DNA of 64,000 bases from Micromonospora parathelypteridis (lineage in GTDB: Bacteria > Actinomycetota > Actinomycetes > Mycobacteriales > Micromonosporaceae). Below the pieces are notes generated by a model. It did not search any database. It was given only the letters and a program-made list of their open reading frames with translations, and was not told where the DNA came from. Made by a program: the position numbers and the translations under genes. The stretch is taken from NCBI RefSeq assembly GCF_014201145.1, contig NZ_JACHDP010000001.1:2542001-2606000 (forward strand). Reading direction: 5' to 3'. Below are positions 46,160 to 52,071 of the stretch, one piece after another (positions within the stretch are counted from its first letter, which is position 1; each line of letters opens with the position of its first letter).

Positions 46160-46690
46160 GTGAGCCGGCACGAGGACGACGAACAGTTCCGGCTGTTCGT
46201 ACAACGACAGTGGGGGCCGTTACTCCGAACGGCCTACCTGCTGACCGGCGACCGAGGGGCTGCCGAGGACCTGACGCAGTCGGCGTTGGAGAAGACCCAT
46301 CGGCGCTGGGGGCGGGTGCTGCGCAGGGACGCGCCCGAGGTCTACGTACGCCGGGCGATGGTCAACACGGCGATCTCCTGGCGGCGTCGACGGCGACCGC
46401 TGGAGGTGCCGCTGCTGACCTCCGACAGCGCGCCGACAACTGACGCGTACGCGCAGGTGGAGGAGCGGCAACTGCTCCTCACCCTACTGCGGCGGTTGCC
46501 GCCCAGGACCCAGGCGGTCCTGGTGCTGCGCTACTTCGAGGACCTCAGCGAGGCGGACACCGCCAAGGTTCTCGACTGCTCCATCGGCTCGGTGAAGAGC
46601 CAGGCGTCGCGCGGACTGGCCCGGCTGCGGAACGAGTTGGCCCCACCCGCCCCGCAGTCCCCGGTGCGGCTCGAGGAGGAACTCGCATGA
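46160..46690 (+). CDS. SigE-family ECF RNA polymerase sigma factor
   Basis: 176 aa. Region 2 (FRLFVQRQWGPLLRTAYLLTGDRGAAEDLTQSALEKTHRRW in part) and region 4 (LLRRLPPRTQAVLVLRYFEDLSEADTAKVLDCSIGSVKSQASRGLARLR in part) match the actinobacterial SigE subgroup (the TIGR02983 type, not mycobacterial SigE). GTG 46160 has GGAGG at 46151-46155. The stop overlaps the next gene by 4 nt, the normal arrangement for an ECF factor and its membrane partner. It is likely autoregulated. Confidence 0.93.
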   Translation: MSRHEDDEQFRLFVQRQWGPLLRTAYLLTGDRGAAEDLTQSALEKTHRRWGRVLRRDAPEVYVRRAMVNTAISWRRRRRPLEVPLLTSDSAPTTDAYAQVEERQLLLTLLRRLPPRTQAVLVLRYFEDLSEADTAKVLDCSIGSVKSQASRGLARLRNELAPPAPQSPVRLEEELA

Positions 46691-48111
46691 CCGAGAGCTT
46701 CGCGAATTCAACGCTGAGCCCTGCGCTACGGCAGGCCACGCACGCCGTCGACGTACCTGAGGACCCGTGGCCGGGGTTCGCCCGGCGCGAGCGACGGCAC
46801 CGGCGGACCCGGCTCATCCGGGCGGCGGCAGCCGCCGCGGTCGGGGTCGCGCTCGTCGGGGTCCAGACCAATGTGGTGCCCCTGCCCGGGTGGGCGCCGG
46901 GCATCGCGGTCGCCGCCGCCCCGGCAGCGCTGCTCGACGCGCCACCTCGGGGCTCGTTGGCCGGCGATCGGGCCTGGCTGGAGACGCTGCGGGCGCGGAT
47001 CAGCACCGACATCCCGTTGGGTGGCGGGAGCCGGGACGGAATCTGGAAGGTTGGCGATCGCGACCGGATTCGTCTGCTCTACGGCAGTGACCAGCCGGGC
47101 CACCGGGTCGCGCTGGTCGCGGTGCCACTGCGGTTCGGCCTGCTGACCAAGGAGGCGCTGGTCTGGTACGTGGGTCCGGCCGGGACCGACGCCCAACAGA
47201 TGCGCTACGCCGGCCACAGCGAGGACGTCAACGAACCGGTGATGACGCTGATGCAGGCCGAGCCCGGCCGGAGCGGGTTCGCGGTCGTCGTCGGGCCCGT
47301 CGATTCGACCGTGACGATCAGTGGCGAGCCGCGATACACCCCAGCGGGAACGCTGGAGTACGAGGACCTCGCCAGGGCGGACGGCCGCGGGGTTGGGTTT
47401 GCCGCCCTGCCCGCTGTGCCGCTTCCGGGCGAACCCGTCGTCCGGGTCAGCCGTGGCGACCACGTGCTCTACCAGGGCGGCCTGGGCGGCGGCCCGTACG
47501 CCGGTGTCGACCCGACCGGGCAGGAGATGGACGCCCTGCTCACCGCCGCCCGACGAGGTGCCCGAGGCACGCCGATGGACGATGCCAACCTGCGCAACTA
47601 CATCGAACTGGCGCTCGTCGACAGTCGCCTCCCGGCGGCCGGGACGACGGTACGGGTGCGGTGGTCCAGCAGCGAGCACGGCCAGGCCGCCGCGCTGCTC
47701 ACCGTGCAGCCCGTCGGCGGCGGCGTGATCGCGTACGCCAGGCATGGCGACGAACGAACCGGCTGGTGGACGGACCTGCGGCTGCTGCTGCCGGCCGAGG
47801 GTGCCGACCAGCGACCAGTTGGCTGGCGGATCCGGGAAGACATCGGCACCGGCACGCCGACGGACCAGGTACGGGTGATCGCTCCGCCGGACGCGGCTCG
47901 GGTCACCGTCACGGCCGGCGGCGCTCCTCCGGCCCCGGTCACCCTCGACGTGTCGAACGCCGGCACCACGCGGATTCCGCCGGACCAGTCAGCCACCTTC
48001 ACTGCGTACGCCGCGGACGGTCGCGTCCTCGGAACCACTCCGTTGCCACCGGTCGAGGCTGATATGTCGGGCCTGCCGGGCGACAGCCCGGCCACCCGGG
48101 TCACCCCCTGA
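46687..48111 (+). CDS. one-span membrane protein coupled to the ECF sigma factor (possible anti-sigma)
   Basis: 474 aa, family not recognised. The N-terminal 40 residues are cytoplasmic, with an acidic and Trp-bearing DVPEDPWPGFARRERRHRR. A single Ala/Val-rich span (about 40-58) is followed by some 400 extracellular residues with a beta-rich pattern (HRVALVAVPLRFGLLTKEALVWYVGPAG in part). No zinc-binding HxxxCxxC anti-sigma motif is present in the short N-terminus. Translational coupling to the sigma gene (ATGA overlap) suggests that it modulates the sigma factor; this is inference. Confidence 0.75.
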   Translation: MTESFANSTLSPALRQATHAVDVPEDPWPGFARRERRHRRTRLIRAAAAAAVGVALVGVQTNVVPLPGWAPGIAVAAAPAALLDAPPRGSLAGDRAWLETLRARISTDIPLGGGSRDGIWKVGDRDRIRLLYGSDQPGHRVALVAVPLRFGLLTKEALVWYVGPAGTDAQQMRYAGHSEDVNEPVMTLMQAEPGRSGFAVVVGPVDSTVTISGEPRYTPAGTLEYEDLARADGRGVGFAALPAVPLPGEPVVRVSRGDHVLYQGGLGGGPYAGVDPTGQEMDALLTAARRGARGTPMDDANLRNYIELALVDSRLPAAGTTVRVRWSSSEHGQAAALLTVQPVGGGVIAYARHGDERTGWWTDLRLLLPAEGADQRPVGWRIREDIGTGTPTDQVRVIAPPDAARVTVTAGGAPPAPVTLDVSNAGTTRIPPDQSATFTAYAADGRVLGTTPLPPVEADMSGLPGDSPATRVTP

Positions 48112-48147
48112 CGAGAACCGAAAGCGAGGCCGAACAGCGGGCCGCTT

Positions 48148-48221
48148 GATCGACACCATTTCGCCGACGTTGCGGTATCCAGCCGCCCGGATACCGCAAC
48201 GTCGGCGAAATGGAGTGGATC
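48148..48221. repeat. 74-nt GATC-bounded foldback element, intact copy
   Basis: Begins and ends with GATC. Inner arms 48156-48180 and 48189-48213 are a perfect 25-bp inverted repeat (CCATTTCGCCGACGTTGCGG and on) with an 8-nt loop. By hand alignment 59 of 74 positions match the element at 51946-52019, so these are two copies of one family. It lies between convergent genes and may also terminate transcription. Confidence 0.8.
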
Positions 48222-48251
48222 GAGCGCGCTGCGGTCGGCAGAGCGCCGGCG

Positions 48252-48506
48252 CTACTTCCAGCGGAAGTGCACGAAGAGCCGGCCGAAGTTCTTGGAGTCC
48301 TTCTCCACGCGGTGGTAGAGCTGCTTGACGTCCTTCTGGTCGAGGAACCGCAGCACCCGCTTCTTGAGCTGGCCGGACCCCTTGCCAGGGATGATCTCGA
48401 CGAGGGTGGCCTTCTTCGCCACCGCCTCGTCCATGATCCCGCGCAACGCGCGGTCGATGTCCTGCCCCTTGTTGAAGATCTCGTGCAGGTCCAGCTTGAG
48501 CTTCAT
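48252..48506 (-). CDS. Smr/MutS2 C-terminal-domain small protein
   Basis: 84 aa consisting of a single Smr domain. KLDLHEIFNKGQD provides the LDLH motif at the start, and VEIIPGKGSGQLKKRVLRFL the HGKGxGxLK-type loop (here PGKGSG, the His replaced by Pro). Smr domains nick branched DNA or act on RNA as endonucleases. The His-to-Pro change may lower activity or make it a binding protein. ATG 48506. It is convergent with the membrane protein gene, separated by the 74-nt foldback element. Confidence 0.87.
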   Translation of the reverse strand: MKLKLDLHEIFNKGQDIDRALRGIMDEAVAKKATLVEIIPGKGSGQLKKRVLRFLDQKDVKQLYHRVEKDSKNFGRLFVHFRWK

Positions 48507-51914: not shown

Positions 51915-51945
51915 CTCGGCCGCACCCTGCGCGCGTCAGCAACAT

Positions 51946-52019
51946 GATCGACACGACATCGCCGATGTTGGTGTATCCCGCGCCCCGGATACCCCCAGAT
52001 CGGCGATCTGGAGTGGATC
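51946..52019. repeat. 74-nt GATC-bounded foldback element, diverged copy
   Basis: Same length and ends as the element at 48148, 59 of 74 positions identical by hand alignment. Its arms (GATCGACACGACATCGCCGA... against ...TCGGCGATCTGGAGTGGATC) pair imperfectly, so it looks like a decayed copy. It sits between two genes transcribed in the same direction. Confidence 0.78.
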
Positions 52020-52071
52020 ATGGGGCATACCGGGCGCGAATGCGGGTAACGCGCGGCGGGAGGTGACCCGA

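Follow-up and report, generated by a model that had tools for sequence, protein, structure and literature searches.

A REPIN-like family of paired palindromes in Micromonospora, selected in place in a genome without the usual transposase

A long hairpin lying between two convergent genes of Micromonospora parathelypteridis is one copy of a real, genus-level repeat family of the REPIN kind, which in this genome (G000 below; one contig, 7.01 Mb) occurs without the usual transposase and whose copies are selected in place. By the window we mean the whole stretch of 64,000 nucleotides from this genome that was analysed. The explanation we favor, with some reservation, is that of an actinobacterial REPIN-like replicator that would be spread by a mobiliser other than the known one, its copies acting as hairpins at the 3′-ends of genes, either as terminators or as insulators.

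Results

Anatomy of the focal hairpin

The segment 48148–48221 forms a single 74-nt hairpin with GATC at both ends and an unbroken inner stem of 25 bp, as the initial annotation had described it, and the predicted minimum free energy of the RNA, −58.4 kcal/mol (z −10.9), was matched by none of 200 shuffled sequences. The annotation had also pointed to a second copy of 74 nt, and alignment bears this out, with 59 of the 74 positions of 51946–52019 identical to the focal copy. The homologous unit is wider than the GATC-bounded 74 nt and measures 78 nt in both cases (48146–48223 and 51944–52021), with two further positions beyond each GATC, one variable and the other a mostly conserved T, which is A on the opposite side. 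Since the DNA flanking the two window copies shows no alignment above chance, a local duplication of this DNA was rejected as the source of their likeness. Nor are the hairpins chance products, a point on which the annotation was right: the arm pattern matches three times in the window and not once in 100 shuffles.

The general plan of an element is a left arm of 35 nt, a loop of 8–10 nt and an inverted arm of 35 nt. In the focal element, to which we assign no strand, the left arm (TTGATCGACACCATTTCGCCGACGTTGCGGTATCC) spans 48146–48180 on the forward strand and contains an inner palindrome at 48156–48172; it is followed by the loop of 8 nt, variable in sequence, at 48181–48188 and by the right arm, an inverted copy of the left, at 48189–48223 on the reverse strand, with its own inner palindrome at 48197–48213. 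The arm consensus in G000 is TGATCSACWCCANDTCGSCGAYRTKGSGGYRTCC (47 bits). Arms start with TGATCSACWC, and arm columns 11–27 are palindromic by themselves, their pattern in the family being CCANNTCGSCGANNTGG, where the symmetry is that of the consensus. With 32 of 35 arm positions paired, the focal copy reaches the maximum of the 72 compared copies of 78 nt. A cloverleaf was rejected as the favored fold, since the long hairpin outscores one hand-drawn clover in all 72 of these copies.

The focal element is approached by the 3′-ends of both its neighbours, namely a gene of 474 aa without a Pfam match (46687–48111, forward strand) and a convergent gene of 84 aa with an Smr domain (48252–48506, reverse strand). 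The second element of the window (51944–52021, likewise given no strand) is flanked by two tandem genes. Rfam 15 gave no match in the window at gathering score. Rfam models of miRNA precursors match 48141–48227 far below that score (mir-4874, E 0.002), which we take to reflect the long stem only.

A dispersed family of paired arms

A blastn search of G000 returned at least 57 matches, with 40 of 63 candidates scored and palindromes matching on both strands, and a covariance model built from 22 copies returned at least 150 strand-wise matches. A loose arm pattern allowing at most one mismatch matched 103 times on the forward and 107 times on the reverse strand, where the reversed control gave none on either, and from these counts we estimate about 105 elements in the genome. 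A total of 0.86 Mb of G000 DNA, most of it surrounding copies, holds 86 elements of at least 40 bits; 168 arm hits fall inside elements and five outside, four of these five in one local array. The corresponding numbers in 1.2 Mb of the closest relative that we used (G205) are 68 inside and four outside, and one 400-kb Markov control gave no arm hits. Arms are nearly always paired, and solo arms are almost absent in these about 2 Mb from two genomes.

Local arrays are found at G000 positions 3014738–3015028, 3161565–3161848 and 2017336–2017601, in which whole elements recur every 206–213 bp, or repeated left arms, two of them 41 bp apart, precede one complete element. In multi-contig genomes some elements lie near contig starts (G163:C18:1043, G180:C17:346, G016:C39:43 and G024:C16:379), perhaps as hairpins breaking the assemblies.

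The covariance model matches 23 of 24 genomes of the same genus and none of 16 from elsewhere in the order, while under strict filters 25 of 150 genomes and eight of 44 genera of the bacterial family, G000 included, are matched. An exact pattern with 23 fixed bases, searched in one genome per GTDB species, found 61 loci, all of them in Micromonospora. The number of exact arm matches ranges from 0 to 148 over 151 genomes; 52 of the 151 have none by this pattern, which misses divergent core types, and the role of the element therefore cannot be essential in the genus. An origin in phages or plasmids was rejected, as neither collection holds a match at E 0.01. Searches of the open-licence literature turned up no account of a Micromonospora repeat of this kind.

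Elements occupy the places of 3′-end hairpins

Using gene calls from our own codon-usage script, we find that the 82 G000 elements with both neighbours called lie in 25 convergent, 49 tandem and eight divergent gaps, whereas 143 intergenic gaps of at least 100 bp from a 400-kb reference stretch, which includes nine elements, divide into 17 convergent, 79 tandem and 47 divergent. Divergent gaps are thus depleted (P 9e-5) and convergent gaps enriched (P 1e-3). At least one gene 3′-end is faced by 74 of the 82 elements. Facing stop codons lie at a median distance of 80 nt (n = 101), facing starts at one of 199 nt (n = 67), and overlap with a called gene end is seen for three of 86 elements. The same bias is present in other species, where 69 elements lie in 23 convergent, 39 tandem and seven divergent gaps (P 3e-4 for the divergent ones). 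With about 105 copies in the genome and this placement, the dispersed intergenic family of REP-like character that the initial annotation proposed is real.

Strong stems in general share this preference. Other stems of at least 11 bp, in gaps of 60–700 bp that hold no element, occur in 16 of 28 convergent, 24 of 117 tandem and one of 49 divergent gaps; when element-holding gaps are included, the gaps of this size with such a stem number 18, 24 and two, and in shuffled letters no such stem is found. It follows that elements occupy slots of 3′-end hairpins. At two G000 element sites, the same gap in a relative that is 85–94% identical to G000 in aligned blocks over 5 kb (G002) holds an unrelated hairpin of the GATCTTGCA...AAGATC type, as judged by eye. 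The genus has a second hairpin family with the ends GATCTTGCA...TGCAAGATC, which is found in similar 3′-end gaps; a pattern scan gave one copy in 400 kb of G000, two in G205 and six in G002, and its places include L162 (at most 160 nt from the Smr stop codon), G000 2659354–2659421 and the 5.92–6.32 Mb region of G002.

The elements share with intrinsic and bidirectional terminators a strong hairpin, a median distance of 80 nt from facing stops and the enrichment in convergent gaps, but they differ in being a dispersed family conserved base by base, with lineage-specific cores and without a T-tract. Five T within the 10 nt after the element are found for none of 86 elements, and for one of 86 on the other strand, and a terminator pattern scan listed neither window element. 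The eight of 82 elements that lie between divergent genes count against a 3′-end role. Judged from sequence and gene context, the copies would nevertheless most likely serve as 3′-end hairpins, either bidirectional terminators or insulators.

Copies at shared sites are under purifying selection

The divergence between G000 and G205 is 10.5% at fourfold sites and 1.9% at codon positions 1 and 2. In the stretches compared, 25 of 29 G000 copies have a G205 copy in the corresponding gap or at most 120 bp from it; these 25 counterparts comprise 24 and one more from alignment, and in one G000 array two copies correspond to a single G205 copy. The 24 pairings tried yielded 18 that were kept; of the others, three were 71–76% identical, two carried a deletion in one of the genomes and one was an alternative partner. 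Dropping six of 24 pairings, including the two with small deletions, biases the result somewhat toward constraint.

Over the 18 ortholog pairs, with column classes defined from 62 other copies, changes were found at 18 of 684 conserved, 22 of 180 middling and 69 of 396 variable positions and at 31 of 138 loop positions, a contrast between conservation and change that is strong by either statistic (Fisher 3e-17; Spearman −0.88). It persists when four pairs whose orthology is less sure, including the focal pair, are removed (14 of 532 conserved, 49 of 308 variable). Measured against base-specific fourfold rates, the conserved columns show 18 changes where 128 are expected and the variable columns 69 where 74 are expected, although codon preference inflates the fourfold rates for these columns' A and T, which makes the contrast within the element the safer one. 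Single pairs carry 0–2 changes in conserved and 1–8 in variable columns, and this, together with a rate in variable columns that is about that of fourfold sites, makes wholesale replacement by other copies unlikely. The two pairs dropped for deletions mean that some copies do decay. Copies at shared sites are under strong sequence-specific purifying selection and are not decaying debris.

Cores change between lineages within a constant frame

Within G000 the two arms of one copy agree at 26.7 of 35 positions and arms of different copies at 26.4, and since arms of the same copy are barely more alike than other arms, the long hairpin is not maintained in detail. Paired cells make up 83.5% of the G000 alignment compared with 81.9% in shuffles, of which 16 of 500 do as well; the covariation score exceeds that of shuffles only a little, with 13 of 500 attaining it. 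The initial annotation had named many intergenic copies with covarying arms, as found by a covariance model, as what would support a mobile or structural family; the many copies, mostly intergenic, are there, but arm covariation within G000 is weak and coupling is seen mainly between the subfamilies of different species. Within G000, a structural RNA is thus not supported by covariation.

Three columns are almost restricted to two bases: column 19 is always C or G, and column 28 is C or G, and column 10 A or T, each in 123 of 124 arms. Species differ in the core, within a frame that remains GATCSACWC...GSGGYRTC: most G000 arms have TCGSCGA, and the cores found elsewhere include TCCTTGA, TCCCTGA, TCATTGA, TCCTGAA, TCCGGCGGA, GGGGCCGA and others, mostly with one core type per genome. 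At the arm-symmetric columns 12 and 26, 91 of 166 G000 arms have C..G and three have G..C, whereas G..C is found in 25 of 26 among the arms listed for G193, in all 17 arms taken from G020 and in 12 of 15 from G004; G280 has C..G in 18 of 26. Over 232 elements, with relatedness ignored, columns 12 and 26 are coupled within an arm (z 9.1) and also between the two arms (z 8.2 and 11.1), and columns 18 and 20 are coupled within an arm (z 14.1). Both arms are alike at columns 12 and 26 in 73 of 114 elements from other species, and in the central triplet in 54. Such coupling of the core could fit either a dimer binding double-stranded DNA or a folded single strand.

The first of these gives the strongest rival to the explanation we favor, namely that the element is a double operator recognised by a DNA-binding protein with sequence specificity, be it a nucleoid, chromosome-organising or roadblock factor. 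Each arm would then be a palindromic site for a dimer, two such sites at fixed spacing would make one site of high affinity, and the hairpin would be a by-product. Selection on given bases rather than on pairing speaks for this, as do the arms of one copy, which are not clearly more complementary than expected, the near-invariant columns 10, 19 and 28 and the in-arm pairs 12/26 and 18/20 that change together. It accounts less well for the near absence of solo arms, as single operators might work too, and for the avoidance of divergent promoters, and a copying mechanism would still be required to bring copies to new sites. On balance we consider the double operator rather unlikely, and we favor the replicator with hairpins at gene ends.

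Gain, loss and mobility

Copies are gained and lost between species. In the 400 kb compared, G002 has a single element, which is at none of nine G000 places, where the same scan recovers eight of the nine G000 elements; in this comparison the left flank was unfound at one place and a G002 gap of 0.8–2 kb was undisplayed at three. One G002 gap of 22 bp retains GATCCACTCGG, which is perhaps the remnant of an element. An element lies within the 330 nt upstream of dxr in seven of 31 genomes, with three core types and different upstream genes, and the close relative G205 has none there. By eye, the stop codon of an upstream ORF in G019 and G021 is provided by the TGA of TGATC; this ORF is longer in relatives free of the element. 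The distribution over species implies past mobility, as the initial annotation had suggested.

Among 49 candidate empty sites, the 20 displayed and judged by eye gave no target duplication and no precise insertion. A unit of 1.4 kb carrying the gene of a 194-aa secreted protein occurs in six copies, and three pairwise alignments of it end at most 2 bp from the outer end of an element; a fourth ends 16–17 bp beyond the element, and the remaining ones start inside the unit. The near-identical family of this secreted protein (194 aa, without a Pfam match) is found at six G000 places (2371657, 4686726, 6357357, 6452276, 6875113 and 6883600), and a second near-identical family, with a Peptidase_C39_2 domain, at three (460970, 1213692 and 1746301). 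Genes of both families have long leaders with repeated GGAAT...CGTTA motifs, presumably akin to ECF sigma promoters, and an element adjoins each of them. The duplicated genes were rejected as carriers of the element, since the two families adjoin 11 of 86 elements.

At the focal site, G205 (2582790–2586136, compared with window 48111–48252) has 3.2 kb with several small genes between two elements, and G000 has one element and lacks those small genes. Recombination between two copies could have produced this difference of 3.2 kb, but the DNA just left of the G000 element resembles the corresponding flank of the right-hand G205 copy, which places the junction beside the element and not inside it.

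No transposase had been seen nearby, which agrees with the few neighbours scanned. In a survey around 86 G000 elements and 78 elements of other species, in which neighbours were compared with one another, recurrent families inspected and seven proteins scanned against Pfam, none of the recurrent families was a known transposase by eye. Next to the element at 3627030 lies what resembles the terminal part of a phage-type integrase, and a neighbour of the element at 4209927 resembles a small helix-turn-helix protein; both were judged by eye and neither is recurrent. As for ends shared with an autonomous insertion sequence, there are nearly no solo arms in the about 2 Mb from two genomes, the rest of G000 having been covered by pattern with a partial listing.

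The initial annotation had called the element MITE- or REP-like, and it is the second part that stands. A classical MITE, that is, a decaying non-autonomous relic of an insertion sequence spread by transposition, would likewise be short, non-coding and dispersed, with terminal inverted repeats and a copy number that varies between species, and the homology of the duplicated 1.4-kb units ending at most 2 bp from the element in three comparisons, as well as the small deletions in some copies, would suit it. However, at shared sites the conserved columns have not decayed and selection acts in place, solo arms are nearly lacking in the DNA examined, no target duplication was seen, no parent element was seen and the 3′-end bias is strong. 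The MITE reading, in which the copies are a dead relic, is disfavoured, and we regard it as quite improbable.

Relation to REPINs and RAYTs

Among the known kinds of repeat, the REPIN comes closest to this element. REPINs are described as inverted doublets of REP sequences with fixed spacing and conserved arms, where singlets are remnants, and tandem arrays with flanks as well as hairpin and clover folds are discussed for them; movement by RAYT is given as a hypothesis, and for SBW25 the distribution of the REP doublets over extragenic space is reported to be random (PMC3116915). The Micromonospora element resembles the REPINs of Pseudomonas and other bacteria in having a pair of conserved, inverted arms whose spacing is fixed and which form an extragenic hairpin of about 70–80 nt, and further in its many copies, in arms that are themselves palindromic and in some tandem arrays. 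It differs in its ends, which are TGATC, the tetranucleotide GTAG or CGTC of REPINs being absent from the arm end, in a strong 3′-end bias where the SBW25 doublets were reported as random, and in the selection in place that has been measured for it.

The transposase is another difference. G000 has no match to Y1_Tnp at E ≤ 1, and G205 has partial matches only. In the genus as a whole 48 of 151 genomes have Y1 matches (44 above the family cut-off), and these do not track high copy number, being present in eight of 25 genomes with at least 40 arm matches and in 40 of 126 others (P 1.0). No association with copy number was found at thresholds of 10 (P 0.11), 20, 40 or 60 arms; at a threshold of one arm match the association is weak (38 of 99 against 10 of 52, P 0.02). 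That a true REPIN family was moved by a RAYT (Y1 transposase) since lost from G000 seems to us highly improbable, as neither the empty Y1 search in this genome, nor the lack of enrichment in high-copy genomes, nor the start of the arms agrees with it, even though the architecture, size, pairing and local arrays are those of REPINs (PMC3116915) and the Y1 matches in the genus, their association at one arm and the partial matches in G205, expected of a decayed gene, would fit. The element works like a REPIN and has its architecture; with no RAYT found in G000, membership in a REP-RAYT system is not established.

Discussion

The REP and BIME sequences of E. coli are placed after genes and have binding proteins. 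Like those of E. coli and its relatives, the Micromonospora elements are repeated palindromes outside genes, but their sequence is another, their arms are 35 nt and nearly always form an inverted pair, and in our analysis they are found only in Micromonosporaceae. For REPs, PMC3733652 describes palindromes outside genes and names supercoiling, termination and mRNA stability as processes in which a part has been hypothesised for them.

We suggest the following course of events for the REPIN-like replicator that we favor. Two REP-like palindromic arms in inverted orientation exist and are passed on together. In the time over which species diverge, a trans factor that reads the arms, and that we infer from the pattern of copies, would place copies of the pair at new sites, and a copy would settle mainly just after stop codons, often between convergent genes. 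Once settled, the copy would supply a strong hairpin or dyad marking gene ends in G000, and would most likely stop or insulate transcription from both sides. From then on selection retains the copy.

A more far-reaching proposal, which we put forward tentatively and think has the lesser chance of being correct, is that of a RAYT-independent paired-palindrome replicator of Actinobacteria, the copies of which would form genome-wide selected 3′-end sites. A switch of core between lineages, taking in nearly all copies of a genome, would then imply co-evolution with a trans protein that both spreads and reads the sites.

The family suggests that something other than the RAYT/Y1 transposase acts as its mobiliser. 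As a small dispersed repeat whose positions have shifted between species and which yet is measurably selected in place, it bears on whether REP-like repeats are selfish, useful or both, and its about 100 defined sites per genome, with cores specific to the lineage, could serve as bait for a binding protein.
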